The notes below the pieces were generated by a model that saw only the letters and a list, made by a program, of their open reading frames with translations, was not told the DNA's origin and searched no databases. The position numbers and the translations under genes were made by a program. Positions 13,642 through 34,740 of a DNA stretch of 64,000 bases are shown in pieces. The DNA comes from Ceratodon purpureus. Its lineage: Eukaryota; Streptophyta; Bryopsida; Pseudoditrichales; Ditrichaceae. Numbering within the stretch: position 1 is the stretch's first letter; each line of letters starts with the position of its first letter. The stretch is from NCBI GenBank assembly GCA_014871385.1, contig CM026421.1, forward strand, positions 22,434,865-22,498,864, read 5' to 3'.

Positions 13642-13642
13642 C
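13597..13642 (+). repeat. poly(T) tract
   Basis: A run of about 42 T within a broader T-rich stretch (13340-13660). It could be the poly(A) end of a minus-strand retroposed copy or simple slippage expansion; no associated body was recognised. Confidence 0.6.
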
Positions 13643-14580: not shown

Positions 14581-17500
14581 CTACTTCTTCGCCAAGGGGT
14601 GACGCAAGATTCCACTCTCTAAGAGTAGCTTGACCTCGTTGAAGCTGAAGGTAGGCGCATGGATGAAAAGCTCGGCTTCGGGATCACGGTTGCAGACCTT
14701 CAAGAGTATGTAGTATAGGTGCTTACAATACGTGAATTGAGTCTTGCCACGGAACGTAGTCATCGTCTTCTTGAATGCTGGGCAAGTGCAACCAGGGTAA
14801 GAACTGATGGTAATCTGGTACCGCGTGATGTGTGGAGTGACGCCCGAATCCAGTCCAATGATGCAACCGTGGCCCGGCTCAGGTATCATGGTGACGGAAC
14901 GGAGGCGCGCTTTAAGAGACTCGGAGGAGCCCATGGAGAGTCGCTGCGCTTGATTGGGACGAGTGGCAGTGCGCTTCACCATCTTCCCGTCTCTCTTGCC
15001 TGGGTAGTGGTCAGCGTCTGCAGGGACTGGCACCGTGCTGAGATTTGCAGGGGGCGGGGCAGACGAGAACAGGCGTCTTGGGGAGACCGGTTTCTTCGGC
15101 GGAAGTTGAAAGCCCGCTGCTTCAAGGGCAAGAATCTCAGTAAGTTTTAGGTTAGTACCTAGTTTCACTGGCCACACCTCTGGAATGGAGGGGAATTCCT
15201 GGTCCTTTGAGTAGTGTGCTACCCACTTGCGCTTAGAGCCTTTCACGCAACGCTCGATATCGTCGGAGCAGAAGAAGAACTCAGTCTTCTCCACTACGTT
15301 CCTGCGATAGTTAGTCCAGAGCCCAGTGTAGGTCGGTGCAGCTGTGCAATGGGGCCCCCTGACGATTCTCTCAGTGCACTTCTTCTTCGTTTCAGCTCTT
15401 TGGGCCCAGCAGCACTTCGCAGAAAGTTTGTGAAGTCTCGAAATGTGCCACTCCTTCACGTCCACCTTGGTTTCTTCAACCGCGTTGACATGGCGAATGC
15501 CGCCCTTGTTCACAGGTGAAGGTAAAGGGGAATCAACTTCCTGGGAAGGAGGTTGGGTACATTGTACCTCGGTGTCGTGTTCGGAGTCGTCTTCCACAAT
15601 GACGGGCATCTGCATAGGGCGAGCTCTGACGGCACGTCTTGGGCCTCTTGGGCGTGAGAAGTTGGTCTTATCCGGGCGATGAGACTCTTCGTCAGCTCCG
15701 ATAAGGACGTCGGCTTTTCGCTTCTGTGAACCGAAGACTTCCGCTCCTGGCATGATAGGCTGACGGGTGCAGAACTCATCCGCGCCTGGCATATCGAGCA
15801 TGGGCTTGTCGAGTAGTGTAGGATTTCCCCATTTCTTCGCGTTGCGTTCCGCCATCCGAAGCCTGAGTTCCTTCTTGGATGGTCCTGTTCCGCCGACGTC
15901 ACCTTTGAGGAACTGGTAGTAGTTGACAACCTGTAGAAATGCCCGAACGAAATCGTCCACGGTAGCAACGTAGAGGTCGTTCCCATTGTTTCCTGAAGCT
16001 TGGAGCCACTTGTTGTGAACTGTTTCGGCGAGGTTACAGGTGGGCATCTCTGTGAGTTCTTCTTTCGTGAATTTCTGCAGATTTGACAGTAGGTGACGTT
16101 AGATTCAAGGATTAGAGTTCTGTAGGTTAGGGCTAGGAAACCAGTATCAAAAACATCAAAACAGAGTGCAGAGATCATACCTCGGTCATGAATCCCCCCC
16201 ACTGGCGGAAGCGGTGGTGCCAGAATGACAGCCACTGATCGAGTTTGATGAGCCCGCTCTCGCCAACGACCCCGGTGGATGCCCACCATGCTCGCAACGC
16301 GTGGTACAGAGTTTCCGCCTCTGCCATGCTGGTCGCATTCTTGTACTGAGTGCACATCTTCTTGTGCTGTTCCCAGAGTTCTTCGGGGAAGTGCTTCTGC
16401 GTATACCCCACCATATTCTGAGTCCAGTGGAACAAGCACGACCTCTCCCGGTCCTCCATTGGGTCTTCCTTGTTGCCATTGCCGTAAAGGATTCGCACTG
16501 CATTCCAATTGGCCTGTGCGTTATCCGCCATGAACCCCTTGAAGTTCGGCGCTGCAACGCCATTGATCTCCATGACCAGGTTCAGGTTTTTCCAGAAGAC
16601 GAGCTGGGCCTCCGTGTCTTCGGACTGCATGTCGCAAGTGGCGATTGTCATCACGCGGCAGTAGGTGGCGTCGTACACATGGCACGCCATGGTCGACCAA
16701 TCTTTGACGCGTTTTACATGGTCGAACATGATGCATGCGTTCTCCAAATCGCCACCAGCTTGCATACGGCTGACCAAGTCGACACCACTGCCCGGCCCGA
16801 CCTCCGACATCTTGAAGACAAAGACTTTGTCACGCATGGATCCCTGACCAGGAAACCTATTCTCCTGGACATACGCCTAGAGACTGTTACCACGGAGCTT
16901 GGTGATACCGTCCATGATTCCGTACCTTACGAATTTTTTGAAGGTGGCGACTTTGTTGCGGATGTTGGGCGACGCCATGTCTTTGCATCGATCCAGAACA
17001 GGAACCAGCTCCTCCATCGTCAGTTTCCTCGGTGGTGCATCCTCGGGCTGTAGAAGGTAGCTCCCGATGAGGAGTTTGCTCGCCTCCAGGACAACGGCGC
17101 TCTTTGTTGCTTTGTTGTTCATCTCTACCTGCTCTTCTATTAAGCTACTAATCTCTGCTTTAGAGTCTCTGTAGTCTCCAACTTTCACTGGATGATCATG
17201 TGTTCCTATGTGAATACAAGCTCTAGTCTGATTCGGTTTGCCCACAACATAATAAATCTTAGCCTCGCATGTAGCTACACATGATGGAGGTTCTTTACAT
17301 ACCTTGCACACTAGCGTGGAGTCAGACGGAGGAGGCTGGTCCATGACAAAAGCTTGCAGGGTACAGCCTTCGAATTCAGTCTCGTTTACCTCGAAGATCT
17401 TGGGAACACGCTTCAGCAAGTCACACTCCTTGTTGCTGCAGCGGAGCCATCCGACGCAGGTGGAACTTCGAAAAGAGAGTCCGAAGTCGTTTTTGATGTT

Positions 17501-18346
17501 TGTTGTGATGGTCTTGGTCCACAAGTGTCCGTCGTATCGTTTGTCCATTCCCTGCATTGACTTGGCCGCGAGCTTAGAGGATCCTGCAGCAGCTGGGGGC
17601 AACTCAAAAAGAACCGGACCATCGAACTTCGCAGGCAAGTACTCAACTCTCTCGTGTCTAATAGTGGAATAGTCTAACTTGTTCAAAATGTTTTTTGACC
17701 CACGTGTCTTAGCAAGCTGTTGAAGGAGGGGGACAATGCTAACTGTGACCTGGGACAATGGAGGAGAGACATTGGAAGGAGGAGCATCTGCGTCGACCTT
17801 AGGCACGAACTTGACGGGACTGACTTCGTCATCAGAAGAGAGAGATATGACGGTCGGAGGAGGTTTCTCTACATCTGAAGTCTCGGTACCAGGCTTGACT
17901 TTGACTTTGACATCGCGAGGTAAGGGAGTCTGAATTGTGCAAGTAGAAGAGCGACGGGGGGTGAGGATCTCAGTAGATGCAGCCATCAGAGAATCAGTAA
18001 GACCATAGACTCTATATGATCCAGGGAGGAGTCTCCACTGCAACATATTGTTTTCATCTCTCACTGAAGGTTGCCCAAGGGTGTGGGTAACCTCCATAGT
18101 AACGTCATCAAAGATTTCCTCCTCTATACTGATCGAATCCTCACGGAAATGGAATCTGAGACTCAGGCGAAGAGAGGAAACTGTAGCTAGACCATCGTCA
18201 TCTACGCGAAACCTAAGAGGGATGCCCATGCCTTGGGCGTACAGACAGACCATCTCCATGATCGAAGGTAACTGAGGCAAGAAGGGAGAAGTGTGACTGT
18301 ACCGGCGAAGCAATATTTCGAGAGCAAAGTGAGAGGAATAATGCAT
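14581..18346 (-). pseudogene. Mutator-like transposase with SWIM finger, element X (one nonsense codon)
   Basis: Minus strand. Exon 1 runs 18346-16181, the intron 16180-16075 (GTATG...CAG) and exon 2 16074-14581, about 1,200 codons. The N-terminal region (RFHFREDSISIEEEIFDD, PGSYRVYGLTDS) is shared with the separated Y N-terminus. It is followed by a basic/serine-rich linker, a Cys-bearing DNA-binding-like region, DDE residues (IMFDH, FMADNAQANW, CNLAETVHNKW) and a C-terminal SWIM finger (CTCPAF...CKHLYYILL). A single in-frame TAG at 16877-16879 stands where Y has TGG (Trp). The rest is open. It could be read through, represent a sequencing error, or make X dependent on another copy. Divergent from the + strand exon at 18887. 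Confidence 0.82.
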
Positions 18347-18815
18347 CGCTGTTGATCATTATATTCAGGTCGGAATGTCCATGTGAACAGGTGGAGAATG
18401 ATTCATTCTGTTACGTAACGAATGTACGATTTAAGAGGGACGGCTCTAACTATTTGGAATGTGACTTTTTGCTGGCCGAAGTATAGCAGGTAAGATATTA
18501 ATAACTCTACTTTAATAATTTCAATCGTGGCGTAGATTCTATTAGTTATGAAGTTTGGTAAGATTGGATTGAGCCTTCTTTAAAATTCTACATTTAAATC
18601 AATGAATATAAAAAGGAGCATGCTTTCAAGTGCTTGATTCTAATCTTTTAATTTATAGTGTGCTTGGATTTCGACTATATATTTAAAGGTTAATATTTTA
18701 AACTACACTTCAGAATAGAACTGTTATGGATACTCTTAATATAAAGAGTGTATTAAATGTGTATAGTGTTAAGGGGCCATATGAATTTAGGGTTGTATCC
18801 AAATAGTTGTTCCTT

Positions 18816-18824
18816 ATAGGTATT
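18816..18824 (+). promoter_or_regulatory. TATA-like box before the basic exon
   Basis: TATTTAAG about 65 bp upstream of the ATG at 18887, within the 530-bp divergent region shared with the transposase gene. Confidence 0.35.
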
Positions 18825-18886
18825 TAAGCGGGTAGGAGTTCTTCAGAGAGTCTTTTTGTGAGAGAGTCAGTCCTTTGGTAAGACAC

Positions 18887-19333
18887 ATGAAGCAGAGTGG
18901 AGGGCCATCCCCCTCCACTTATGTCACTCCTAAACCTAGACGAAAACGAGGTGTTACAGATTTTACGGATAGAAGAGCGAGGAAGAGGAGAGAGTCACGT
19001 AAGAAGGTAGAATTTCCACCAGACCATGTGAGTGCTCCTGTGAAAACGAGAGGATCAGGTTTGCCTGTAGCTTTAAAGTTCTGTAGCATTCGTAAACTCA
19101 TTCTAGAGTCTATTGTGGAGGAGGAAGAAGAGAGTATAGAGAATACCGCCGTTGAGAATCAGGAGCAGGGACAGCAGATAATCTTAAGTGGAGTTCAAAG
19201 TGAGGCCATGACGGAAGAATTAGTTTTTAATTGTAGTCAAAGAGTAGAGTCCCCGCAACCTTCTATTAAATTCAATGAATTTTCGACAGGGGAGCGGGAT
19301 TCTCAATCCGATATATATTTCAACTCCGAGCAG
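18887..19333 (+). CDS. basic N-terminal exon, possibly exon 1 of the ParB-methyltransferase gene of X
   Basis: The frame starts MKQSGGPSPSTYVTPKP, then a strongly basic stretch (RRKRG...RRARKRRESRKK) consistent with nuclear localisation, then a Glu-rich part (EEEEESIEN). It runs into a clear splice donor, GAGCAG/GTAAGC, at 19333. Element Y has an analogous + strand exon (31299-31577, also basic and ending at a donor) at the same place between transposase and ParB-methyltransferase. Both are therefore candidates for the first exon of that gene. Direct connection to the downstream exons is not provable from sequence alone. Confidence 0.5.
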
Positions 19334-19399
19334 GTAAGCTTTTCTACACCGTCTTCACTGCTGTGCATTCTTAAAAATTAATTAAATGTTCTAAAGAGT

Positions 19400-21440
19400 A
19401 GAAGCATTACTATTTACAAAATGTATATTACTTCTGGAAAAAAACCAAATGAATTGCTTAACGTAAATGTCGCGGAACTGAAATGGTTGTAATATGCGTA
19501 GAGGAACCCAAGGATAAGGTTAGCCGGATTTTCGAGTAGGGACACTCCTCAAGAAGAGGGTCGTGAACTCGACCATTTCTGTGCCATCGCGAGGAGAGCA
19601 AGGTTTTCGATACTGGGAGCAGGTGAAGGAGGAGCGATGGCAGCGAATGCGGAGCAGGTGAGGGCAGGCTTTGGGGCGGAGTTCGGTGCAGAGGCCGCGG
19701 AGCAGCCTCCTGTGGACATGGCCGCGCAGGAGCTGGGAGCAGGGGAGGAGCAGCTCAGGCTGCCTGGGGACGCGACCGAGGAGCAGGAGACGACGGATGG
19801 GGACTGTAGCACGACGTGGTATCCGTATTCCTCCGGAAGGCACTTATTTGACACTAAACACCTTCCAAAGTGAACCACTCCGTGTTCGTTCCCACGAAGA
19901 CCTATAGTTTTCCCTCTATTAGACAATAAGCTACCTTTCCTCGTCCGGCACCTAGCCAACCGGATTCCCTACCGGATGGACTTCCGGATTGTCACCCTCT
20001 AGATCCGGATCCGTCCGGATACCGGCTCCCAGACGGTTACCATCCGTCCACTCTAGTTACCGTCCGTCCCAAATCCCTTACCGGATGGTACTTGGACGGA
20101 CGTCTATTACAGTTTACTGGACAAACTTCCGGATTTTTAGACTAGTGGCCAGTTCCCACTGATCCGTCTATGCTTTAAAGTGGCTGGATTCTCCACCGTC
20201 CCGTGACTTAAAGTGGCTGGACACCCACTGCCCTGTAACTTAAAGTGGCTAGACACCCACTGGTCCTATTCTAACAACCGGATGGTATGATTTCCGTATG
20301 TCTACTCTACCGGGCCGGATGGCTACTCAGTACCGGATACAGGGACGGAATCCTATACTACAATGACATTCCGGTCCGGCTGCAAGTACTGTTTCTACAC
20401 TGTTACTCCTTCCGGACGGTTTCCGGTTGGCTAGTCAGGCTTTTGTCCCTGTCACCAGGCTCCTTCCGGACGTTGGAAACCGTCAACACTCGGCGCTTGA
20501 CACCCTTCCAATCTCTCCGGGCGCTCTCCTGATTCACTCAACCCGAAAACACACTTCCGGAATCCTACCGGCAACAATGGTACTTCCAACCGGAACCACA
20601 ATGGACCTGCTATGCAACCGTCACTCGCTCAAACTCCAACAGTTTCTCAAAACATATTCTGAATTTCACAAGCTAATGGAATACAAAAACAAGGTGCAAG
20701 CCTTGTGAAAACTTCTGGCTTAAGTACTATCTCCTACCCGGAGTTCTCGCAGCCTAGTGGCCCACTAGATCCTAGAATTCTGGATCTGAGATCTAGATCT
20801 GAGATCCGGAATTTAGATCTGAGATCCGGTTTCTAGATCTGAGATCCGGTTTCTGGATCTGAGACTTCCGGATTGTGGATCTGAAACTTCCGGATCTCAA
20901 CAACAACAAATCACTATATCTAACTCCCTGTTAATAGCCGGGTGCAATTGAGCCCCATCGTTAGTCGCTATTAAGAGTCGGGAGATTTCTAACTACCTAT
21001 TTCTACTTCTTACCTGATCCGGAATTATAGAAGAGCCAGACTTCCGGCATCTTGGACATCTACCTACCGGCTTTGAGGTTCCGGTCAGTGTGGGAGCTAG
21101 CCCCATCTACTATTCTTGGGTTCCGGTATTCGTCCAACAGTTTCTGGATTCCGGATTTCCAAACTTCCGGAATCCAGATTTCCGGATTTCCGGATTTCCG
21201 GATTTCCGGATTTCCGGATTCTGGAAACTTGCAGTCCGACCGGAACCGTCCGGCTAGCCGATATCAAAGACTTGTGCCACCATGTCTGGTTATGGCTTCT
21301 AGTTTCTCCCAACCGTCTTATTAGCTAAAACTATCATATTTATAATATTCCTATCTAGCTAGTATTCTAGAAACACTATAATTTCCGGTTTAGCCGGAAA
21401 TTTATGCTTACTTCCGGAAACATGTGGGAACGTCTTCCCA
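19400..21440 (+). repeat. intron-like region rich in CCGGA/TCCGG words, with a short ORF
   Basis: Dense TTCCGG, CCGGAT and GGATCTGAGATC words run from about 19950 to 21420, including a TTCCGGA octamer-like microsatellite at 21160-21230 and GGATCTGAGATCCGG repeats at 20790-20890. A Glu/Ala-rich frame (19637-19873, MAANAEQVRAGFGAEFG) precedes it. Word composition resembles the gag-like gene at 59-60.9 kb, so this may be a decayed insertion of a related retroelement in an intron of the X cargo gene. That relation was not shown by alignment. Confidence 0.4.
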
Positions 21441-21443
21441 CAG

Positions 21444-21480
21444 GGACGATGGGGAGGAAGACCGCGAAGACCTTGACCAG
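21444..21480 (+). CDS. candidate short acidic exon
   Basis: A 37-nt stretch bounded by CTTCCCACAG and GTACGG; one frame encodes DDGEEDREDLDQ. It resembles the short acidic exon proposed for Y at 40191-40290. Low confidence without transcript data. Confidence 0.25.
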
Positions 21481-21769
21481 GTACGGAACTTTTCTTTGAA
21501 TGATTAGGGTAATAGGGTTTGAACGAGTGAACGAGTGTACGGACTCATAGGGTTTGACTTGGACGTCATCATTGTTGATGTGATGGAGGAATGAAGATTC
21601 GGGGGTTTAGCATTTGAAGAAGTTGCAGGTGATGGATTGTGGGTGATGGGTTGTGGTGGGTTGCGGGTGATGGGTTGCGGGTGGAGGGTTTGGGGGTGAT
21701 GGGATGCGGATTGTTGGGTACTTGTTGGGTGGTTGGGGATTGTTCAAGAGTGTTGGGGATTGCCTGGTG

Positions 21770-22090
21770 CTCGAGTGCTTGCTGCTCGATTGCGTGCTGC
21801 TCGGGGCTTGATTCCGAATGCTTGAATCCGAATTATTGCTGTTTAAATCCGAATGCTTGCTGCTTGAAACCGAATGCTTGCTGCTTGAAACCGAATGCTT
21901 GCAATGAGATTGCTTGAATCCGAATGCTTGAATCGGAATGATTGCTGTTTAAATCCGAATGCTTGAAACCGAATGCTTGCTGCTTGAAACCGAATGCTTG
22001 CTGCTTGAAACCGAATGCTTGCTGCTTGAAACCGAAAGCTTGCTGCGCGATTGCTTGAATCCGAAAGCTTGTTGCGCGATTGCTCGAATA
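21770..22090 (+). repeat. imperfect tandem repeat of a GCTTGCTGCTTGAAACCGAAT unit
   Basis: About a dozen copies of a 20-23 bp unit containing CTTGAAACCGAATGCTTGC and variants (CTTGAATCCGAATGC). Non-coding, intron-like context. Confidence 0.65.
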
Positions 22091-22920
22091 TTTAATTTTT
22101 TTTTTTTTCTTGTTGACATTGTGTGATAATGAAATGCATTATGTGCTCACAAATTGTAAATTAAAACGCAATATTTTATAGAATTTTTAAATTTTCTTTT
22201 TATTTTCTTTTTAATTTGAATATTTGAAAAACCCCAAGCCTACTGTCGTCAACGACAGTAGGCCGGGGGCACACCAATGAGTTTGGGGATTTTGGATTTT
22301 TTTTTTTTTTTTTTTTTTTCTTGTTGACATTGTGTGATAATAGAATGCATTATGTGCTCACAATTTGTACATTAAAATGTGAATATTTTATAGAATTTTT
22401 GTATTCTCTTTTTATTTTCTTTTTCATTTGAATTTTTAAAAACCCCAAGCCTACTGTCGTCAACGACAGTAGGCCGGGGGCACACCAATGAGTTTGGGGA
22501 TTTTGGATTTTTTTATTTTTATTTTTTTTCTTGTGCGGATTTTTTTTATTTTTTTATTTTCTTTGAATTTATGTGGAAATTCGGATGCGAATACAGTCAA
22601 TGTCTGAATTGAAAATCTGAATTTCTGGGTTAAAGTATACGGATTTTAATGGTTTTTTTTTGGATATTTAAGAAAATAAAAATACCCAAGCCTACTGTCG
22701 TCAACGACAGTAGGCCGGGGCCGTGGGGGCAATTTTGGGGATTTTGCGGATTTTTTTTATTTTTTTATTTTCTTTGAATGTGTGTGTTGTGTGAATTCGA
22801 TTACAGTCACAAAGTCTTAATGAAAATCTGAATTTCAGTGTTTTATTATACATATTTTAATGGTTTTTTTTGAGATTTAAGAAAATAAAAATACCCCAAG
22901 CCTACTGTCGTTAATGGTTT
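22090..22920 (+). repeat. four ~210-240 bp units each with a perfect 11-bp-stem hairpin
   Basis: Copies at about 22233, 22447, 22690 and 22900 contain GCCTACTGTCG TCAA CGACAGTAGGC (an 11-bp stem with a 4-nt loop). They are followed by a purine-rich GGGGGCA segment and preceded by T-rich tracts. The fourth copy is truncated within the stem. The array lies in the presumed first introns of the X ParB-methyltransferase gene. Confidence 0.75.
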
Positions 22921-23017
22921 TTTTATGAGTCTTTAAGATTTTATTGGGAGCCGTTTCTAGGTTGAGGTTTAATCCTTCATAGTTGCAATGTTTTCTAATA
23001 ATTATCAATTTGCTTAG

Positions 23018-26000
23018 GACTCTGATGGTGATCATCTGGGGAGCGAACGTCAAGACCCTTCGCCAGCAGAAACTGAGGTATTTCATTCAATTTACAATTT
23101 ATATTCTTTTCTTATGTTTATGAATTTGAGTTCTATATGCCCTCTACTCTTTTAAATATGGAAGTTAATCCTCACTTCATTTCTGCTACTCTAGGTATCA
23201 TCCGATGCTCCTGAGATGTCTGCTACTTCCCCCATTTCTGTGATCAATGTTTCCGATCTTTCGGATTCATTTGATCAGCCTTATTGTACCTGTGATGTAG
23301 CCAACCCTGTAGGTGTGGAAAGTGGACCTCTCGAGGTCCACTCTCCTCAATACATGCCTACCTCGCCAGTGTACATGCCTACCTCTCCAGTGTACATGCC
23401 TACATCTCCGGTGTATGAGCCAACCTCCCCGGGCTATATGCCCACGTCTCCTCCACAGGGCTCCCCGCCGATGTCTCCACCCTCTCCTTCGTCGCCGATT
23501 AGAGTCAGGAGGCCAGCCCATGTCGTCTTTGCTCTGCCGGCTATTTTGCCGTGCCCTGTCCAACAGACCAGGCGATTTTGGAGGAGGCGCCGTCACTGGA
23601 ACTGTAGACAGTCTAAGGAGTACTATAGTCGATCCTCACGTAAATAGTTTTATCAATCACAGATGATGATTGAGTTGTTAAAAGAGAGGTTACAGTATGA
23701 AGATATATTGTTACTTTCTTTTACATAATTGTCTACTTTGCATGACTTTCTTCGATTGTGCTTGTTCTCCTAATTTGCGCACCTTCTCGCAGGTTACGCA
23801 AACACAAGATGTGTTGGTGAAACCATCTTGTCCGTTAAACTTGAAGACTGCCACAGAAGGGGAATTGGAACATCAAACCAAATACAAGGTGAACACCAAC
23901 GCCGTCATCAACAAGCTCAGGATCAAGCCATCGCAGAAGTCCCGAATGTCGGTGCCTCTGTGCAGGATGATCCCAATGGCAAAGGTCAGACCAGTGGGCG
24001 AAGTGGGTGTGCAGCATTTGGAGCGGGAGTTCGTCAAGGGGTATAGAGATGGCGACCGCGTCATGTACATCTCCATGTACAACAACGAAGAGCAGACACG
24101 AGATGTTACGGATGAGGTCATGGCTAAATGGAGCCCATTATGGAGGCACGCGAATGATACATTTGAATCTGAGCTTCAAAGTGACGAGGACTGGTCGCAA
24201 TTCTCGGGGAAGATGTTTTTTGTCTGGGAAGGTAACCATCGCCTCTCAGCATGGCTTCGGCATATCAACAAGCATCATGCAGACGACCCGTCATGGCACA
24301 TATCAGTGAACTGCATAGTACTCGATCCCCGTGGCCATGTTGGCAATCTTCTTCACGCAATGCATGACATCAACTGGTAAGTACTTGTTTCGTTTCTCCT
24401 GTTTTTCATTTGTTACTTAATCTCATCTCTTTTATTCAACGTACGTATTTTGGTTTCTTTTCAGGTCGACTGAGAATGACCACGTCAAGAGTAATCTCCC
24501 TGCAAAACTATTTCGAATCCGCTCTTTTGGAATGATGAAGCTTGAGGAATTCAAAGACCTCCTAAGTCCTGAAGAGTATGACGCATGTTTGAAGAACAAG
24601 CCACCTAATCCCTCCTGGTTTCCGTTGACAACTAAAGTTTTCATCGCATTTCTGTACCGAGTAAGTCCTACCTCCTCTCTCTATTTGCTTCTTATTCTTC
24701 AATACTCATGGAATTTCCTAAGCCTGAATTATCTATCTACAGCGGGAACTTGCTGCGGCCTCCGATGAAGCAGCAAGTGCCTACCGCATGAAGACACCCG
24801 AGGATGAGCAGTCTGCAAGTGCAGTTTGGGATGTCATGAATGAGGCATCAGAGAGAATGGTCGAAGCCATCAAGAAGAAGGACTTTACCAAGTACTTGGC
24901 CATTGCAAATCCCAAGAATGGTGACGACTTCCTCAATGAGGTGACTCACTGATCATTGTTCAATTCACAATTTCGTACGACTTCATTGATTTCTGTATTT
25001 ATCTTTTTCAAACTTCCTTGCTTCTTGCAGATTAATCGCCATTTCAGTCTCAACAATAAGCCTGAGATGTCAGTCGATAAGCTTCAGAAGGTTGTTCCAG
25101 CGGCCGTTGAGGCCAAATACAAGGCTCGTTGGTTGAAGTGGTGGAACTCATCCCCGAGTGCTCGAACGTCTTACAGATTTCTGCCATCTGAATTCAAAGA
25201 CACCGAATTCGACCCATGGTTGAACAAAGCTTCATTCTGGGCTGGGGTAATTTTCATTAAAAATTTCTTTCGATTTCCTTGTTCCTTTATTTTTTTACTG
25301 TATTTCTTCTTCGCTGCTACTTATATGATTTTTTTATTACAGTTGGAGGAAGCCGTCATCCACGAAGTCGAGGACATATTCAAGTCTGAGAACCTCGATA
25401 TCAATTGGATGGCATTTCCTGATGTCCAACAGCCGGGCGATTTTGTCGAGAGTTCACGTATTCTATTATGGGACAAGGCCTTCCCTACGTTCATTGGAAA
25501 AAAAGCTGAGAAGCACTTCGACAAGAAGTCCAACTTCGCTAAATTCCCTGGAACCGCTCAAGTTGTCAAGCGGGTTACTTACCGGTACATTACCAAACTT
25601 AATCGCATTTCCATTTCATAGTTCTCATTGTAATTGTTTCTTATACTTACCTCCTTCGTGTCTTCCCATAGGTACTTCAAGCGAGAGCTTCTATTGAAGG
25701 AGGCCATCAGCATTCAGCAACTCCCCATGTACTTCAAGCTTTGGACGCAGACAACCTCGGACCAGTGTATCTATTCTCCCCAGCAGATAAAACGGTACAA
25801 AGCTGCTCACCTGGACGCTGGATGCTGGTATCTTGATTGTATTGGTGGTTTCACTATTGACTCCGAGGCGGAAGTCAAGATGCTGCACGATGGAGGTGCG
25901 GTTGTCGTGGAGGACTCCGTGGATGATGCAGAACGTCCTGAAGGAGAGCAGGATCAGTCTTCTGCTCCTCCACCGAAGAGAGGGAGAGGAAGGCGACTGA

Positions 26001-27745
26001 AATCTCTGGGTTCTCGGTCAGAGGCATCACAGCAAACTGGTGCGGAGTCTTCCGCGCCACCTGAGAAGGCACCACAGCCCTCTCCGGGTATTATCGTTAC
26101 GAACCCTTCTCCAGCTTCTTCACCGGCTCCTTCCTCGATCAGTGCTTCGGAGATCACCAGAGGTCTCCTTCAGCAGAGGAAGGCCAAACTATATCCTCAA
26201 ACAACTTCTTCCGCTGGAGCTTCGATTTCCACACATGTCTCCGTCTTCAACTCATCTGTAGATTCCATGTTACGGCGAAATAGGAGACAGGAGAGAAAAG
26301 GTGGCGACCCGGATTGGATCAAGACTCAAGACTTCATTCGCAAGGTTTGTTCCTATATTTTGACATTTACTGGATTCTGCCACCTCTACTCGCTATGTAG
26401 TTACTAACTCTGCTTTCTTGTTTCCTCAAGTTTGGAGCAGGCCGCGAAAACATAGTTGGGGACCGGTGCAAACAAGAGGACCATCTGGGAGTCGACTTGA
26501 TCATTGCCGACATCCCTGAGAATCTTCCCGTCCCATCCGTTTCCGTTCCCCCCACGAGTATTCCGCCTTGGAACTCTCGCTACAAGGATTATTTGTACGA
26601 CATCTTCCATTTTGCAGATGATTTCCTGCAGAAAGATGGTGCCATCTGCCTCATCTACAACACTGATCAGAAGCTGGCTAAGGATATCGAGGAAGAAGCT
26701 GCTGGTGGTGGATACGTGCTGTTCAAGGACTGGTGGGGTGTCAATGTACTCGGCCTGACTTCTCCTACGAACCCCGAGAACTTGGTACTTTTCCTAAACA
26801 TGCCCTTCTCTTCGCTTACTGATAACCCTTCCGCTTAATTTTACTCACTAGTTCTGCTTGACTGCAGACTATGCGGTTCTGGATTCGCGTCTACGTTCGT
26901 AGTGGCAGTACTTTCTCCTTCCAGACGAAGAAGGAAGACCTGATACATGGGCTCCTCAACATTACCGAGAGTGATGCCATTTTCAACTTCACCGATGCCG
27001 AATCTCAGCTCATGAATGGGGAGGTGCCGTGGAGAGGCCCAAGGGAGAAATCCCCTGAGATGATGCAGAACATCATTGAGGAGCTGTCCAAGCCCGGCGA
27101 CATAGTTGTTGACTGGAATGCTGGGACATGTATCTCTCTTACATATCTCTGCTTCATTTTTCCTCTCGTTCTTTCCAAAGTTTCTCATTTCTTTGTTTCT
27201 CTTCGAGTTTCAGGGGCCTCCATCAAGGCCGCCCAGGCTGTTGGTCGTCACATTCTCGCTTTTGAGGAGGACGAAGCCATATTCAACGCCCTTCTCAAAC
27301 CATCCGCCATGGGCCCTCCTAAACATCCAAGGCCGGCAGCAACAGGCGAAGCGCCTCCAAAGAGAGCAAGACCTGACAAGTGGTGTACGTCTTCTATTCT
27401 ACGTTCAATTATCCAATCATTACTTCTCTTTCCACCTCTACGTACAAGATCTAACCACAATCGGTTCTGTATTGCAGAGTAGTTTCTGCATCACCGCCAC
27501 GTGTGCCAAGAGCAGTGTCCACTCCATCGTGGCGTCTTCATTCCAGCCCGATTCAGCCTTTCATACTTCCGGACTACGCAGAGGGCTTAGCACAGGCGTT
27601 TCAATCTGGAGCCCTTACATATGTTCCTAGTCGGCCAAGTACTTTTGATCCCAGGGCCCTTCAATTCGTCGATGACGAGGCGGTAGAAGGAGATACGGAG
27701 TCATCTAGTTCTGAGAGTGAAAGTAGCGACTGTAGCATGTTGTGA
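23018..27745 (+). CDS. ParB-like domain + class-beta amino-methyltransferase-like protein, element X
   Basis: A spliced gene. Ten well-supported exons are 23793-24376, 24465-24660, 24743-24940, 25031-25246, 25343-25584, 25672-26344, 26431-26784, 26868-27129, 27214-27384 and 27483-27745. They total 3,159 nt (1,053 codons) and stay in frame across every GT-AG junction. Exons 23018-23077 and 23195 to about 23640 probably precede them; the junction before 23793 is unresolved. Domains: a Tyr-Pro-Thr-Ser-Pro heptad run, a ParB-like N-domain (VPLCRMIPMAKVRPVGE, then FFVWEGNHRLSAWLRHI), a helical middle region, a charged low-complexity linker, then methyltransferase motifs in class-beta order (IIADIPEN; RGPREKSPEMM; VVDWNAGTWAS; RHILAFEEDEAIF). 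Bacteria and phages have ParB-methylase fusions. Catalytic DPPY is DIPE here and the SAM loop has Trp for Gly, so activity is doubtful. Confidence 0.75.
23351..23455 (+). other. five heptads resembling the RNA polymerase II C-terminal repeat
   Basis: Five consecutive seven-codon units: YMPTSPV three times, then YEPTSPG and YMPTSPP. They follow the YSPTSPS consensus at positions 1, 3, 4, 5 and 6. Serine-proline and proline-rich sequence follows (PPMSPPSPSSP). The frame is continuous with the preceding exon. No counterpart was seen in Y. Confidence 0.75.
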
Positions 27746-28258
27746 GGTTGAAGGAGGCTTCGGTCTATTGTTGTTTTCATTTGATTTGATTTGATTTAAT
27801 TGGAGTTCATTGGGTAATCCTTCGTCTACTCTACTTCCCTGAACCTAAACTTGTTATAATTCTCATGTCCAATTTGTCTCCGTGTTTGTAAAGGATGAAA
27901 TGTCACAACTGTAATGCTCAAAATATAATATGAAGAATGAAATGTTACAAAAGAAAGGCTCAAATGTAATATTGTGCTGTTATTTATATTTTACTCATTC
28001 AAAATCCCACATTTGCATAGCCATGTTACCTATTCTTCACTTGGTGTACATCTTGGTTTCGGCTACTCCATTATTGTACACGAACTCTGAAATATTCCAC
28101 GGACTTTTAAGACCATTTCTTTTAGTTGGTTTTTCTTTTCTTATTTCTAGAATCATCTATATTATCTAAAACCATCATGCTCGAATACTCGTATCTAGAT
28201 CCAATGAATGACCAAATCTTAAGAATTGTATTCGAACACCCCACTAGACTTCACTGTA

Positions 28259-28630
28259 CTAATCCTTCGAAGGATATACAGTCCAACTCTTGTCCATATC
28301 AAACCAGCAAGTTTCGCCATCCGATATGATCACTTCGGGCAGCTGAACAACTGGATTCTCATCGACGTTCGATAGCAAGGGATACGGGATTAGGGATAAC
28401 TCCATAATACGGAGAAGCTCATTGGTACAAAGCACTGTCCAACGCCATTCACCTTCACCAACATGGAGGCTTCCGATGTGCCTAAACGGTGGCAGGTCCA
28501 TGCCTCGATCCCTGGCGCGCTCCACCTCCAGCAGCCACGGCCGCAGCTCCTCATAACTCGCCGGTGCCTTTGGGGGCAAACCTACAGCCGCTCTCGTCCT
28601 CCTGGATCTCGCATTACACACCTTCGGCAT
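28259..28630 (-). CDS. small conserved terminal ORF of element X
   Basis: 123 codons from MPKVCNARSRRTR to the stop; an upstream in-frame extension to 28858 is not conserved in Z, which has a stop there. The N-terminus is basic, followed by PKAPASYEELRPWLLEVERA, DLPPFRHIG, EGEWRWTVLCTNELLRIME and a C-terminal ETCWFDMDKSWTV. It is nearly identical to the Z copy at 61680-62051, with only a few conservative changes, and sits in the same place next to the terminus. No known domain was recognised. Its conservation suggests an element function such as terminus recognition or regulation, but this is inference. Confidence 0.6.
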   Translation of the reverse strand: MPKVCNARSRRTRAAVGLPPKAPASYEELRPWLLEVERARDRGMDLPPFRHIGSLHVGEGEWRWTVLCTNELLRIMELSLIPYPLLSNVDENPVVQLPEVIISDGETCWFDMDKSWTVYPSKD

Positions 28631-29334
28631 CGCGCAACACACTGAATTCTTGTAGTCTTCAAACGTTCCAGGCAAGCTTGCAGATTGACATCCCCGAACT
28701 CCTACGCTACCTTCGCATACAGCACAGCATGCCAAGGACTGTGTCACTATCCAAATACGCCATCTAGAGACAAGCTCAAGAAACCAAGAGTGACCTCCTT
28801 CTCTGGAACCCAGCTTACCAAGTGTTGTTTGATGATGAAAATCTCCTACTTGTATCACTCAAATGAAGATGCTTTGCTGCCTACGAAGAGAGAGTACTCT
28901 TCGATGAAGACAAGGACTCTAACAAGGTATATCTTGGTTTCAGCAGTTAAGATATTATACACGAATTTTGAAATATTCCAGGAAGTTTTCAAACCTTGCC
29001 TCCTTTACGTTCTTTCAAATTTGTTTTTTTCCTTGTGCATTTAGATAATCCTATGAAAGAATTATTTGTTTGATCTAAAACTTAACGCCTGATCATTATA
29101 TCTTGCCTAAATCCATGAGAAATATAACAAAATATATGCATGACGTCATCATGACATCAGCCCTAATTTGTATCTTAGAGAACAAACGTAATAAATTCTT
29201 ACCAGAGATAATCTCTAATTTCCACGGTAATATACTCTTTTTCTAAAAAAAGTGTCAAAATTTAGCCTTAATTTAGTAATTTTCCACGGTTATAGGGTCT
29301 ACTTTGCTTTTGAAAATTTTCCTAATTCTCAATT

Positions 29335-29401
29335 CTGTGCTCTCCATTCTGCGCTCACCGCTCTCCGCTCTACGCTCTCCGCTCACGTACGAACTTTCCC
29401 C
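29335..29401 (-). repeat. right terminal inverted repeat of element X
   Basis: The reverse complement reads GGGGAAAGTTCGTACGTGAG, then GCGG, AGAGCG, TAGAGCGG, AGAGCGG and TGAGCGC words. It matches 12878-12960 inverted and the Z terminus at 60910-60975 almost exactly. Confidence 0.8.
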
Positions 29402-29411
29402 CTGCCGGGGT
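29402..29411 (+). repeat. target-site duplication of element X, right copy
   Basis: CTGCCGGGGT, identical to 12868-12877. Confidence 0.8.
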
Positions 29412-29954
29412 ACATGGAACGGATGACTTCAGGGAGGTTACTACTTCCGCAGGAATCTCAACTGCTGTTGGCAATGTCGTGTCCTTCACCTCAGGGAGTA
29501 CTGTCGTCTCAAGTACGTTTTCACTATCAGAATCACTCAACTCAAAGATGGTTTGAAGTCCTGGCTCGGTCTTCACTTTCCTCAACGGCGGATCAGAATT
29601 GATGCATACTGTTGTAGACGATCGGGGGGTAAGCAATTCAGTAGAAGCACCTAAGACAGACTCCGTAATTCCGTAGACTCTGTACTTCCCTGGTTTAAGC
29701 AACCAAAACGTCCCAAACTCCTTCTGGGTAGATAACTGACCCACTGCATGCGAGAGTTCGCCACTGATGTCGTCAAATATCTCCTCCTCTACATGAAGTG
29801 ATTCCTCTCTGTACTGGAAGCGAAGACTCAGAGTGGTAGAACTGATCATAGCACACCCATCTACACCCAAAGGAAACGTAATCGGAACAGAATGCGAATC
29901 TGCACGAAGGTAAGCCATACTGTGAACACGAAGAGCGAGATGTGAAAAAAGCAA
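29402..29954 (-). pseudogene. Mutator-like transposase N-terminal part of element Y, separated by X
   Basis: The minus-strand frame starts at 29954 and encodes about 184 residues homologous to the N-terminus of the X transposase (RFQYREESLHVEEEIFDD; KPGKYRVYGITES; STELLTPRSSTT). It runs into the X target-site duplication. The remaining two thirds lie at 12867-9388. The two parts join in the same frame when X is ignored, so the gene was intact at the moment of insertion with respect to this site. Confidence 0.85.
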
Positions 29955-30315
29955 ACACGGCGGAGGAGATGATCACAGAATATTACGTACCCTTCTCGCT
30001 GCGACATTCTTCTAAACTCACACAAGAGTACATGATTCAGGAGACGGTTAACATTAAGACGTATAGTTAGGATAATTTCTGGAGCGAATAACCTTACATG
30101 AACTAATTAATCATGGATTAGTACAAGTCCGGAGAACATGCCCGCCCTAATATTCATTGTCATATAGGCTGGGATATTACAGACATGAGTGGTAGATGAC
30201 GGCCACTTTTAGTACTAATAGATTTTTTATTACAATGAAACGCTTTCATTACAATAGAACCATTCCGATCACATTCAGGTACACGTACTCCAAGGTCTTT
30301 AATCCCACTACTCTG

Positions 30316-30771
30316 TTAAACTCGACGAATGTGTTTTCTGGATGGCTCCCTCGCATCGTAGTCTTTGATACTGTCTTCAAGAAGCCCATGAGTGCTAATT
30401 GCAGTCCAGCAGCCTCTACTTTGTAGCCTACGTCCTTTCGGAGGAGGGGTGCTTCTTAAAAGACATCTGGAGTAGGTCCCCGGTTTGATGTTTCCAACTT
30501 TGGCGTACGCATGGGCTGCACTAATAACGTCGCACACAGCCCGTTCTCCTTCTACCGTGGTTGGGGTGGCCGACTGGACACAGCCCTCGGCGTCCACAAT
30601 CATGACATGAACGGAAGCAACTTGGGTGGGTGGCTCCTTGGAGTCTGGCAAGCTGCAATCTGGAACTGGATCAAAGGGACCCTGAAAATCGTCTAAGGAC
30701 ACCTCATATTCTCCCACTACCTGTGAATCTAGAAGTATACGAGAAGGGGACATGAGCGGTTCTGCCTCCAT
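30316..30771 (-). CDS. small accessory protein of element Y (HAY-KVG motif family)
   Basis: The start is taken at MEAEPLMSPS (30771), because a TATA box at 30844-30851 lies between it and the more upstream ATG. 151 residues: an acidic Asp/Pro-rich N-terminal half (DDFQGPFDPVPDCSLPD), then HAYAKVGNIKPGTYSRC, which matches the X protein at 13873-14325, then a basic tail (KGRRLQSRG). In Y it lies upstream of the transposase and in the same direction, whereas in X it lies beyond the transposase 3' end, so the module moves or inverts. Function unknown. Confidence 0.6.
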   Translation of the reverse strand: MEAEPLMSPSRILLDSQVVGEYEVSLDDFQGPFDPVPDCSLPDSKEPPTQVASVHVMIVDAEGCVQSATPTTVEGERAVCDVISAAHAYAKVGNIKPGTYSRCLLRSTPPPKGRRLQSRGCWTAISTHGLLEDSIKDYDAREPSRKHIRRV

Positions 30772-30843
30772 CTCCAGTGAAGCCTCTACTAAGATTATCT
30801 CAATCTGGAAATGCGTCTGGAAATGGAGGAGCCAGTGACATTT

Positions 30844-30851
30844 CTTATATA
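30844..30851 (-). promoter_or_regulatory. TATA box of the small accessory gene of Y
   Basis: TATATAAG on the minus strand, about 75 bp upstream of the ATG at 30771. Confidence 0.5.
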
Positions 30852-31298
30852 GGAGTATGTACAATGAACGCAGCCTCGGCTCATGTTAAAACACGTGTCT
30901 AGGAGGGCTATATTAATGCAAAGAATGAATCAGGGACGGCGCAGTCTTCGCATGGTTGTTCACATGCAGTTAATACGTGACAGTATGAAAGGTGAACTAA
31001 CTTGTGCTGCAGAACAAATGCTACGCCATGGTGAGTAGATATTGGAATCTTATCAGGTAACTAATTTCATGCATTCCACGTACAGCCAACGGCGGCTCAT
31101 TCATTAAGACAACTATTAGCGTCCAAATATCTTATGGAGGGCCCAAATGTCAGTGAGACATATAAATCGCGGTCTAGCTCATAATGACACGCTTTAAGAC
31201 ATTTTAAAGAATGAACATATTATGGGGTTCATAGATCCCTCGTCAGCTATTTTTTCAAGCCATTACGTAATGCTTCGAATGGCCCATTAGAATCAGAG

Positions 31299-31577
31299 AT
31301 GATCACACGGTCTGCTTCGAAGGCGCAGGCAGAGTTATCCAGGTCTGTACAGAAACGGAGGCGTCTTCGGAGGAAGAGGAGGTTAGCGGCTCTGGAGGTC
31401 ACTGAATCCCCGTACAATTTGCGTTCAGCGATGGGGAAGAAGGGAGGGAATTCTAGTCAGGCCGTCGGAGGACAAACTAGACGGCCTGGCGCTTCGATTG
31501 GACGAGACGATGTTTCACCGCGAACTCTGAACTATGTGGATGAGGACGGAACGCCCATCCAGAATCCTCGCAGTAAG
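31299..31577 (+). CDS. basic N-terminal exon of element Y, possibly exon 1 of its ParB-methyltransferase gene
   Basis: The frame begins MITRSASKAQAELSRSVQKR and continues with RRLRRKRRLAALE, a strong nuclear localisation type cluster. It runs through SPYNLRSAMGKKGG to a donor, CGCAGTAAG/GTATGC, at 31577. It occupies the same position and strand as 18887-19333 in X. The two share composition and architecture rather than obvious residue identity. If it is exon 1 of the downstream gene, its first intron would be 8.6 kb and contain the minus-strand genes at 33-39.5 kb. Confidence 0.45.
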
Positions 31578-31639
31578 GTATGCTCCAATGCAATGGGAAC
31601 CATGCATACGCTTGTCAACTTCGTTCTCTGGTAGACAGT

Positions 31640-32680
31640 AAAAATCACTGACCTCATGAGTATAGGTTACTTCATAGTTGTCAAGTACATAGTCATTGAG
31701 TAGGCTGTAGTTTAGGAATTGAGGGTTTAGTGAGGGACGTTTCCTGCGGACGATAAGGCCTATTACTCATGTGTTTAAAATGGTCACAGATTGAACGATG
31801 TTTGAGCCGTATGAATTCATTTTTTGCGTTCTTGTCATATTCTTTACATGCTGAGAAATTGCAAAGAGCAAGTCCTTAATAATAGTTCGTTGGCGGTAAT
31901 ATCGGGCTCGGCACCGACTGAGCCAGGTTCTCGTTGCCATAGCCTAGGGGGCCGATTCAGACCGCAGCATATACGAGGGACGGGTCTAGGCTAAGAGAGA
32001 GGGGGCGCATGCAGCCTCGCAACGACATCCTACATAGTATTCTCTCGGGGGATTCACTTAATGTTAAATTCTACAACCAGCTGCGACCAGCAGGTATTTT
32101 ATGGAGGGGTATTATTTTTCAGGGGTCGAATTTTATGGTATGTTGAATTAGATAATACCCCTGTTTTGCTCAATTGATTGTACTGTTCATTTTATTATAA
32201 ATTTTCTGAACTGGTTTTGAGTGGATGCTAAGTTAGTTTAAAAAATTTGTTTTAGACGGTTTTGGGGTCGGACCTAATGCAGAATGTAAAAAATGCTGAA
32301 AAAATCGAATAACATGCTGAACATCTACGAAATTGAACCAAATTCCAAGAACATGCTCAAACGCATACATTCCACGCCTAACTAAACATTCCACAGAATA
32401 ATCTGCAGTACACTGTTCATTCAAGCATGCATCAAGATGTACGGTGGAACATGCGCTGTGACATCCGACCCCGGTAACAAGTACATATTATCTCTTCATT
32501 CTCTCGTAAAGCCACAATCATCAAGAAGTCACAGGTGCAGAATGAAAGACGAGGCATAACTCCAGCAAATTCTGCAAAGTACCCCACCTCCGACTGCATG
32601 TGTCTATGAACACAGGTGCAAAACTTTTGTATCGTCTGTGCACAAGGGTTTGGTATGCATCAACTACCTATCCTCAAATA
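31640..32680. other. no supported gene
   Basis: No recognisable coding region. A short segment near 31890-31960 (GGGCTCGGCACCGACTGAGCC) faintly resembles the minisatellite core. Confidence 0.4.
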
Positions 32681-32689
32681 ATTCCTAAT

Positions 32690-32833
32690 TTAAATGATAC
32701 AAGCATCGTCTCGAAACAACGCAAAAATGAAGAACAACGGAATTATAGAGGTAACAGCCAACAAAAAGCCGTTACACTCCTGAAGCTGTCGCAAAAATTC
32801 AGAAAACTGAGCATTCAACCTCCCGAGCGCCAT
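32690..32833 (-). CDS. possible small single-pass membrane protein exon
   Basis: 47 codons starting MALGRLNAQFSEFLRQLQ, followed by one hydrophobic segment (FLLAVTSIIPLFFIFALF). An acceptor-like TTTGAATGCAG lies just upstream on the minus strand. Not assigned to a family; it may be part of a captured host gene fragment. Confidence 0.25.
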   Translation of the reverse strand: MALGRLNAQFSEFLRQLQECNGFLLAVTSIIPLFFIFALFRDDACII

Positions 32834-33239
32834 CTTCAGACCTGCATTCAAAGAAAAAGCACCCGAAGTCAGTACTCCGGGCACCCGCAACCTCCCAAGT
32901 ACTTCTCCGATCAGGGCACCGAATTAAGATCCTGAATAAGGTGTGCTTAATAGGTTTAGGGAAATCGTTTAGATTGAATGAAATTGAACTCGCAGAATCA
33001 CATGGAACTTGGTGCTATCTAATCCAGTCGACTACCGAAACAGAAGCATCAAAATCTGACAGTTTACCCAGCAACGCGTACATCATGAAGAAGAAAAACC
33101 CCTACCACCCGTTTCACTCCTACAACACCGAGAGTTTGAGAGAAAACAGTAGGGAAACTAACAACGACCGTAGACATAAGTAACAGCAGAGAGCAGGAAG
33201 GAACTCACCTCGGTGGCTGCGAAGGAGAAAACGACCTGA

Positions 33240-33623
33240 TCAGAGTTCCATCTTCTTGTCCTCGACCTTCGTTCGCACCGTGGCCAGGTCCTCAATCTTC
33301 ATTTTCCGGAGCTCCTCTGCGTCTACCTCGGTGGGTGCGAACGCTGCGAAATTTCTGGACCAGGCGCTGCGGACAAAGGAGACCTTCTCCACCCAGCCAG
33401 GTTCGGCGATGAGAAAGTATTCCCACATCGCCAGGCGTAATGCTTGGAACTCCTTCGTCGACTGAAGAAAGTCCCGGGACTCCTTGCAAATGTGGGAGTA
33501 CGTCCACATCATCTCCAGGTCCTCCCAAAGCGGATTCACGCATCCCCAATCCTCCCACGAAGACACCAACCTCAGGCGCACAAAGACGGGCGAGAAGATG
33601 GCGCTCATCAGAGCCGGCTCCAT
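33240..33623 (-). CDS. uncharacterised ORF, 127 codons
   Basis: The protein is Trp/Glu-rich (SWEDWGCVNPLWEDLEMMW; RLAMWEYFLIAEPGWVEK) with a charged C-terminal helix (AEELRKMKIEDL). The composition looks protein-like rather than random, and it lies on the same strand as the channel exon and the 1,493-codon ORF. No homologue in the window and no recognised domain. It may be a captured fragment or part of a nested element. Confidence 0.35.
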   Translation of the reverse strand: MEPALMSAIFSPVFVRLRLVSSWEDWGCVNPLWEDLEMMWTYSHICKESRDFLQSTKEFQALRLAMWEYFLIAEPGWVEKVSFVRSAWSRNFAAFAPTEVDAEELRKMKIEDLATVRTKVEDKKMEL

Positions 33624-34575
33624 CGTAGGTGCGGCGGATCACAGACTTCCTGGACGACGGTGCAGCAAGGTGAGATCGCGGAAAATTGAGCGCAGAGACA
33701 AAGTGCAAATAACAAGGGAGTTTGGAAGCAAAATGCAGGAACGTCTTCTGAGCGAAGGGGTACTGGGAATGCAAAAATGGCTGAGAAGACTGCGCCGACA
33801 GCAAGGGTAGGGACATCATGAGAGTTTCATCGGTTTTAGATCTACCAGGCCTACGTTTTAGGGTACCTGATGATGACGGAAATGGGCTGCACTCAAATCC
33901 CAGATCGTGGGAATGTCTGCGTGTCCCATCTCCAAAACGCAATTATTATTCCACGAACCTGGGGTACAATCGAGCTTGTCAAAACATACTCTTTTCTCAT
34001 CATGAACAGAGTACTTAACCCACGTACTTGGAGGGACTGATTTGAAAGGAAATGATTTGAAAGGAACTGATTAAACCTGAACCCACTTGACGTAAGAAGA
34101 GAACCAGATTTATCCTTTTCATTAAAAAAATAGAAATAAAACTAATAAATAAAAATTAAAAATTAAAGAAACACTTACTATTACTAAGCGGGAGATTCAT
34201 TACATTCAGCAGCCTAATGAGAAGAGGCCTGCTACGACCAAGGTTCTAACAGACAAAGATTTATAACCAGAGCTTTTAAAAAAAAAAAAACGCACCTCTT
34301 AAGGGGTACTTAAAGGCGCACCTCACGGAACACCTTGAAGGGAATAAAAATAACCTGGGAAGGAAATAAAAAACCAATCAGAGATTAATCTTGAACAGTT
34401 CATTCGACCTGATACAAGCCAATATTATATCCAGCAACTGCATCATTGCGATGAAATCCAGAAACATAGCTCTTCAGTAAGAACAGAATCCGATGGTTAC
34501 AAAAACTAAGCAAAATACCATATAATTTTAAGCAAAGAAATTCATATCAGAGTTTCAAAAAATTATATATCATAC

Positions 34576-34740
34576 CATAATTGAGGGCATGAAAACGCCT
34601 CCCGGAGTAGCAACACCGTATGCAAGATTGAACAGAACAGAAAACGACATTGAGAGCAGGATGAGACTCCGTGTGCTGAAATAGGTGTCCAGTTCGCTAC
34701 CCATCGCAAACAACTGCTTCACTGTCTGCTCTCCCAAAAG
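34576..34740 (-). pseudogene. captured chloride-channel (CLC) exon fragment
   Basis: Minus-strand frame of about 55 codons ending at a donor (CCTCAATTATG/GTATGATA). It encodes EQTVKQLFAMGSELDTYF, a hydrophobic helix LILLSMSFSVLFNLAYG, and then VATPGGVFMPSIM. This corresponds to the conserved CLC region with a GIATPSGLF-P-I signature lining the anion pathway. Family members have about 700-800 residues; only this exon is recognisable. It therefore looks like a fragment captured by the element, as Pack-MULEs do. No flanking CLC exons were identified with confidence. Confidence 0.5.

Follow-up and report, generated by a model that had tools for sequence, protein, structure and literature searches.

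In the 64,000-nucleotide stretch of the genome of the moss Ceratodon purpureus that was analysed here (contig CM026421.1, positions 22,434,865 to 22,498,864; referred to as the window), the gene at positions 23018 to 27745 is the cargo of a transposon, lying between the terminal inverted repeats and 10-bp target duplications of a Mutator-type element, here termed the Y element. This agrees with a preliminary description of the same DNA, which overlooked both the palindromes arrayed in tandem within the gene and next to it and a series of repeats resembling the C-terminal domain (CTD) of RNA polymerase II. The data suggest, at the level of sequence, a self-recognition or anti-silencing system in a large and highly repeated moss transposon. 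According to the best reading, to which we assign a probability of about 45%, the cargo gene would encode an array-binding anti-silencing or activator protein that works in the manner of VANC from Arabidopsis and carries a methylase module that is probably non-catalytic.

The boundaries of the Y element are defined by the termini GGGGAAAGTTCGTACGTGAGCGGAGAGCG and GAGGGAAGCTTGTACGTGAGCGGAGAGCG, and its right end corresponds to window positions 29399-29403 in eight of the ten other copies compared, which were drawn from the upper part of 150 genome matches and not at random. The Y element is nested in the transposase gene of a second element, X, the inverted termini of which comprise 69 bp with 95.7% identity (8494-8562 and 59001-59069) and are bordered by the 10-bp duplication GGAGACAGAG (8476-8485 and 59078-59087). 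Both elements have a common layout that consists of a leftward transposase gene, tandem arrays and a rightward cargo gene. Target duplications of the Mutator-like group measure 8-11 bp (PMC6446971), and both elements combine terminal inverted repeats with duplications of 10 bp. Pfam scans of the X and Y transposases yielded no match to Mutator-like element (MULE) or SWIM families; the designation as Mutator-type is thus based on the duplication length, the termini, a SWIM-like CxC...CxH motif read by eye and the context, which is DDE-like by eye.

The three gene copies reported for the window were recovered (Table 1), with the X gene being about 43% identical to the window Y gene in the first exons. 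A search of 362 Mb of genome sequence in 151 contigs with the exon that contains a segment previously termed ParB-like resulted in at least 150 matches for Y (150 of 1881 candidates scored) with identities of 86-100%, of which 142 of the 150 scored were stop-free in a 144-codon stretch. The corresponding X exon gave at least 152 matches (150 of 1872 candidates scored), with 46-100% identity among the matches listed. The two lists should overlap hardly at all, given an identity of about 40% between Y and X in this exon. The absence of the gene from related elements, named beforehand as an observation that would count against the proposal, was not encountered, as the gene occurs in two separate elements of the window and has many relatives in the genome.

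An alignment of the window gene with nine other copies (c10, which ends at 26561, was dropped) showed that the exon borders agree in the ten sequences except for single-copy changes, such as the loss of the AG before 26868 in c5a, so that the conserved exon positions noted earlier were found again. The joined exons form a 965-codon core that is free of stop codons in seven of the ten copies, and the last exon from 27480 adds 88 codons, which reproduces the 1,053-codon product predicted before. The frame of the last exon is intact in all ten aligned copies, with one additional stop, four codons short of the end, in c7b. By hand, a candidate junction between exons E2 and E3 was located; splicing from a donor that follows 23639 to an acceptor that precedes 23809 would preserve the frame. 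The coding nature of E1 and E2 is indicated by third-position excess and by the ratio of non-synonymous to synonymous differences (pN/pS), and every exon read in frame has a pN/pS below 1. The values are sums over pairwise comparisons of nine Y copies, uncorrected for multiple hits; c6a was left out on account of a frameshift. A further first exon, E0, was aligned in five copies (the E0 match of c10 lies elsewhere and was left out) and runs on there to GGAGA(C/G)CAG|GT, whereas this end is replaced in the window copy. Moreover, the T at window position 27129 places a tryptophan at the glycine of motif I, where all nine other aligned copies have a G. The broken first exon and this substitution indicate that the window copy is probably defective. 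As a separate observation on E2, the palindrome AGTGGACCTCTCGAGGTCCACT is located at 23321-23342 within this coding exon; it is whole in 10 of 11 Y copies, retains the 18 central bases in c7a and is identical in the distant clade L036.

The arrays within and beside the gene are the most informative feature with regard to function. An array of CCTACTGTCGT-NN-ACGACAGTAGG dyads was detected upstream of E1 in all 11 Y-type copies, comprising the window copy and the ten fetched ones, and it lies between E0 and E1, corresponding to the predicted intron 1, in the five of the ten fetched copies with an aligned E0. A total of 142 units with at most three mismatches in the inner 14 positions was collected from the 11 elements. 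Their arms are conserved at 94-100%, including the outermost four positions per arm that were not used for selection, whereas the two centre bases reach 64-68%, the near flanks 64-71% and the far flanks about 51%; in some units the symmetry is extended by matching bases on both sides. Genome-wide, 1802 perfect Y dyad sites were counted against none for a control pattern read backwards, and the 50 listed ones fall into five clusters on contig C1, each beside a copy of the Y gene. The X element contains a different dyad, with 86 units between 40500 and 53500, 52 of them upstream of the gene, 31 in three introns and 3 in exons (83 of 86 non-exonic); this dyad yielded 974 and 807 oriented sites in the genome and none for the control. 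Additionally, eight further subfamilies were sampled over 2.6 kb upstream of the exon, and six of them revealed tandem arrays with a conserved motif, which is X-like in L029, whereas L030-L034 share CCGA(G/T)CAGA in different arrays. A core TCGK-NN-MCGA is common by eye to the sites of Y, X, L029 and L032. With conserved arms, free centres and flanks, a site that differs for each family and a location within introns and upstream DNA that belong to the element itself, the dyad arrays look like binding sites for an element-encoded protein. The variation of the tandem arrays in copy number between elements would also be expected if the palindromes were satellite-like repeats that are homogenised by hairpin-driven conversion and bound by no protein, but the contrast between arms and flanks, together with the variable centre bases, is unlike the outcome of unit-wide homogenisation and makes this explanation most improbable.

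With respect to the methylase domain, PF01555 matched with E=2.1e-6 and 28.3 bits (cut-off 26.7), the best stretch being the X-I part, and phrog_6952 matched with E=1.3e-8. Alignments by hhalign with two phage methylase families covered 183 and 193 columns and included the whole stretch from motif IV to motif I. The score was 71.7 against the methylase half of phage ParB-methylase fusions (at most 22.6 in 40 column shuffles) and 105.3 against a phage family retrieved with locus L039 (at most 22.3 in 40 column shuffles). NCBIfam models of adenine methylases gave weak matches far below their cut-offs, and the best match of the methylase part in a search of PDB sequences was CcrM (E=0.021). On these profile matches, a class-beta amino-methyltransferase domain with the permuted motif order IV - X - I is present, as had been described. 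In L194, L195 and L196, the three loci with upstream DNA examined, the methylase is likewise preceded by the ParB-like and middle parts.

The sequence of motif IV differs between the moss clades. Nine of ten Y copies have ADIPEN when read in frame; the remaining one, c6a, is frameshifted upstream, but its exon also encodes ADIPEN. The X copy has ADIPE, and among seven further loci the motif is DQPF in L190-L194, DQPY in L196 and DVPE in L195. The catalytic pattern (D/N/S)-x-P-(Y/F/W) is therefore lacking in the studied clade, in X and in L195 and present in L190-L194 and L196. The motif IV exon is also the least constrained one, with a pN/pS of 0.67 versus 0.09-0.20 in E2, in the ParB-like exon and in the four that follow it, and the exon values show that the S-adenosylmethionine (AdoMet) half is better kept than the catalytic half. 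An active DNA amino-methylase could mark the DNA of the element with N4-methylcytosine (4mC) or N6-methyladenine (6mA) for recognition by the element or by host machinery. Such an activity is in line with a complete class-beta domain, motifs IV, X and I included, with the aromatic residue kept in the DQPF and DQPY clades and with the nearest phage set by profile, in which 96 open reading frames include 47 ADIPYN, 16 TDPPYN and 4 other DPPYN motifs, the 47 ADIPYN matches indicating that isoleucine is tolerated at position 2 in this phage set. A captured bacterial 4mC enzyme is, moreover, used at transposons by bdelloid rotifers (PMC8885841). Methylation by the studied protein is nevertheless doubtful, because DIPE and DVPE lack the catalytic aromatic residue, with glutamate in place of tyrosine in the Y copies, X and L195, and because the motif IV exon is the least constrained; we thus regard an active enzyme as unlikely. 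The homology claimed in the preliminary description was upheld, but the DNA methylation it implied became questionable with DIPE in place of DPPY. Catalysis may have been lost in the DIPE and DVPE clades, activity would stay possible in the DQPF and DQPY clades, and the module of the studied clade is probably non-catalytic. Regarding individual loci, part of the middle region and motifs IV and X of L195 (C1:5957000-5959400) form one 567-codon frame, so that some introns differ between clades, and L196 (C8:9595400-9597100) matches almost the entire PF01555 domain at 35.5 bits, the highest score for this model in the genome, and contains one internal stop.

A working model can be outlined in which a family of Mutator-type transposons in moss has carried the cargo gene as an accessory for a long time. 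The encoded protein would bind as a dimer to the arrayed dyad sites within introns of the element and in its upstream DNA, and the array-bound protein may keep the element expressed against host silencing. The acidic N-terminus and the CTD-like heptads could assist expression. These heptads are encoded by E2, ahead of the ParB-like exon, and have the form YxPTSPx; most Y copies have five of them and clade L036 has three. The Pfam CTD model PF05001 scored 19.5 bits, 0.8 under its cut-off of 20.3. The methylase domain, a relative of phage class-beta amino-methyltransferases, would now act in the studied clade as a DNA- or AdoMet-binding module without catalysis. The role as anti-silencer or activator is favoured because the tandem targets of VANC show a similar pattern and because VirB is an anti-silencer of the ParB superfamily.

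Several observations weigh against this model. Among the 50 perfect sites listed, none is located at the Y copy at C1 353464. L035 showed no array in the sampled upstream DNA and L036 a different GC-rich 171-bp repeat; q194 contains just 1.9 copies of a 274-bp unit in the fetched DNA, and no array was seen in the fetched upstream DNA of q195 and q196. CTD-like repeats were not found in the X gene region, with no P[TS]SP between 40501 and 53500. No DNA-binding domain was found in the cargo protein, and the tests of the ParB-like segment reported below were negative. Furthermore, X dyads with no or one mismatch also occur at 54023-57316, and three one-mismatch X dyads lie between the exons of the X transposase (10919-11146), so that the transposase could bind the arrays. 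The arrays might then serve the transposase as binding sites, enhancers or promoters and be unrelated to the cargo gene, an arrangement also suggested by their position between two divergent genes in Y. However, the X arrays occupy three introns of the cargo gene and the DNA directly upstream of it, and the element termini, the normal targets of transposases, bear other repeats. This explanation is consequently not a likely one, and the arrays are more readily assigned to the cargo protein, the binding of which may oppose silencing.

The ParB-like segment has the constant features (V/I)PLCR(M/L), VR(P/E), a helix-like stretch, FYVS-like strands and GNHR, the latter within FF(V/Y)x(W/C)(D/E)GNHR. 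We take this motif order to resemble that of ParB and sulfiredoxin, with GNHR presumably at the position of the phosphate motif GxxR. GNHR is present in all 15 moss sequences compared, although a motif of four residues is slight proof. The Pfam model ParB_N gave no match in the moss genome and was positive in 11 of 14 control genomes. In hhalign comparisons with 71 ParB_N domains of viral contigs and a plasmid seed, the probability did not exceed 1.1 of 100 and nine of 60 shuffles were as good; a comparison that used more divergent moss rows scored 15.7 versus a shuffle maximum of 16.3, and cutting out the insertion likewise gave no support for ParB. An hmmsearch with 12 real and 600 shuffled sequences returned shuffled ones at all of the top 25 ranks. 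Scans of the segment with Pfam and NCBIfam produced weak unrelated names alone, the sole hint in the profile scans being a DUF1015 match of the X copy over the GNHR region (E=0.16), and the PDB sequence search with the ParB-like alignment had an unrelated protein as its best match (E=0.23). Checks of 49 viral and 34 prokaryotic pattern stretches confirmed no relative; plasmids contributed two matches at E>=4 and phages none. A ParB identity was thus not above chance in Pfam, NCBIfam, hhalign or hmmsearch with decoys, and the earlier ParB-like assignment was not borne out, the short GNHR motif being its sole support. A prokaryotic or phage origin of the whole protein is not supported by the searches, the kinship being limited to the methylase part.

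The palindromic arrays adjoining the gene, the GNHR motif in a ParB-like order and the known phage fusions of ParB with N6_N4 methylases (PMC12704722) could point to a parB/parS-like system, the protein of which would be loaded at the dyads and then spread or clamp on the DNA of the element for segregation, clustering or copy marking. In view of the undemonstrated ParB homology, the needlessness of a partition system for chromosomally integrated elements and the lack of a ParA-like gene by eye in the lists of open reading frames, in which no search aimed at ParA was made, such a system is highly improbable. A related proposal, in which a fusion of ParB-like and phage-methylase parts acts in self-recognition by loading on the intron arrays and spreading, while the CTD mimic holds the transcription machinery and protein and array co-diversify, is distinctly unlikely.

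Table 1. Positions of the elements, repeats and exons in the window
Feature	Position	Strand	Description
Y element	12878..29401		16,524 bp, Mutator-type; contains the studied gene copy; defined by termini and right end across copies
Y target-site duplication, left	12868..12877		CTGCCGGGGT, 10 bp; from sequence
Y target-site duplication, right	29402..29411		CTGCCGGGGT, 10 bp; from sequence
Y left terminal inverted repeat	12880..12955	+	83% match to 29332-29399 reversed
Y right terminal inverted repeat	29332..29399	-	
Y transposase gene	14581..18355	-	Three frames, of 505, 233 and 492 codons; CxC...CxH of SWIM type close to the C-terminus; from open reading frames
E0 remnant (first exon)	19637..19804	+	Start from alignment with 5 copies
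Y tandem repeat array	22091..22914		Unit about 211 bp; 3 perfect dyads: 22238-22263, 22449-22474, 22690-22715
Exon E1	23018..23077	+	Splice sites in 10 aligned copies; pN/pS 0.29
Exon E2	23195..23639	+	Five CTD-like heptads YxPTSPx (about 23351-23451), basic end; pN/pS 0.09
Exon E3, ParB-like segment	23793..24376	+	GNHR at 24231; pN/pS 0.20
Five middle exons	24465-24660, 24743-24940, 25031-25246, 25343-25584, 25672-26344	+	pN/pS 0.15 in the first four, 0.33-0.47 in the last
Motif IV exon (methylase)	26431..26784	+	DIPE at 26509; pN/pS 0.67
Exon with motif X and start of motif I	26868..27129	+	T at 27129; pN/pS 0.35
Exon with end of motif I	27214..27384	+	pN/pS 0.44
Last exon	27480..27745	+	Acidic tail, stop; pN/pS 0.37
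X element	8486..59077		50.6 kb including the Y element nested in the X transposase gene
X 108-bp array	40620..46209		52 units of CCTCGG-NN-CCGAGG (at most 3 mismatches), directly upstream of the X gene
X gene	46346..53080	+	Relative of the studied gene, partly decayed (stop, frameshift); DIPE at 51260
X dyad units in X gene introns	47171-48150, 49036-50340, 51531-52630		8, 14 and 9 units
Third copy, Y-type	60910..64000	-	3' part of the element, ended by the window edge; 3' part of the gene at 62607-64000 minus

The window contains additional features. A 337-codon frame at 286-1296 on the plus strand matches a GIY-YIG domain (Pfam PF19239, E=1.9e-10), and a proline-rich frame at 5784-6326 on the minus strand encodes cell-wall-protein-like repeats of the type YSPSPVYxSPP without a Pfam match. 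Within the X element, an unbroken 1,498-codon frame extends over 35005-39501 on the minus strand, with no Pfam family over its cut-off; a 27-bp inverted repeat around it (32036-32062 and 40077-40103) may delimit another nested element.

If the proposed role as array-binding anti-silencer or activator is true, Mutator-type elements would have invented sequence-specific self-recognition a second time and independently, far from Arabidopsis and using parts of prokaryotic type. The copies number in the hundreds and include several subfamilies that differ in their array motifs, so that a single genome would provide a natural series for the co-evolution of a protein and its sites. The DQPF and DQPY clades represent concrete candidate amino-methylases in a moss, in which marks other than 5-methylcytosine are directly testable.

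A survey of the literature by title and start of abstract, with most subscription journals outside its scope, yielded no description of a transposon-borne moss gene with ParB-like and methylase parts, which is consistent with the earlier statement that the fusion is undescribed. In phages, ParB-CTPase folds are fused to N6_N4 methylases (PMC12704722), the words plant, moss and Mutator being absent from the main text of that paper. These fusions share with the moss protein a ParB segment, putative in the moss, ahead of a class-beta methylase. They differ in length, with 313-521 amino acids among the 40 listed of 72 frames versus more than 1,000 in the moss protein, the gene of which has 12 modelled exons in the window, and the plasmid seed of the phage comparison matches ParB_N whereas the moss protein does not. 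Motif IV in the 72 phage frames is represented by 68 DPPY, 2 SPPY, 2 DPPW and 1 DIPE, in comparison to DIPE, DVPE, DQPF and DQPY in the moss. The phage class-beta methylases retrieved with L039 provided the best profile match, with ADIPYN corresponding to the ADIPEN of the moss, but their 271-amino-acid seed lacks a ParB-like segment and the catalytic tyrosine is retained. A methylase with a ParB-like domain has also been mentioned for a prophage of Wolbachia (PMC3089641). Prokaryote-type amino-methylase domains are found in eukaryotes as N4CMT of bdelloid rotifers (PMC8885841) and as the adenine methylases of DIRS elements (PMC5890265), the latter likewise inside a transposon. In contrast to the moss gene, N4CMT is a host gene working in silencing and the DIRS enzymes are Dam-like and belong to retrotransposons; palindrome arrays do not appear in the examined parts of these accounts.

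VirB, a member of the ParB superfamily, acts as an anti-silencer from a palindromic site (PMC10653881) and thus exemplifies a ParB fold with this ability, although it is a regulator of a bacterial plasmid and its homology to the moss protein is undemonstrated. The closest parallel in organisation is provided by the VANDAL elements of Arabidopsis, which are likewise of Mutator type and carry the accessory gene VANC beside the transposase. VANC targets short motifs that are repeated in tandem within introns and upstream DNA and that vary from one related element to another (PMC5735166; PMC10398659), and the moss elements likewise contain family-specific tandem motifs in their non-coding DNA. A common protein domain was not seen, the Pfam scan of the 965-amino-acid core giving N6_N4_Mtase and a weak DUF6568 alone and the VANC sequence itself not being part of the comparison. 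The moss system is distinguished from VANDAL/VANC by long dyad-symmetric sites, by the methylase and CTD-like modules, by terminal inverted repeats and by its moss host.

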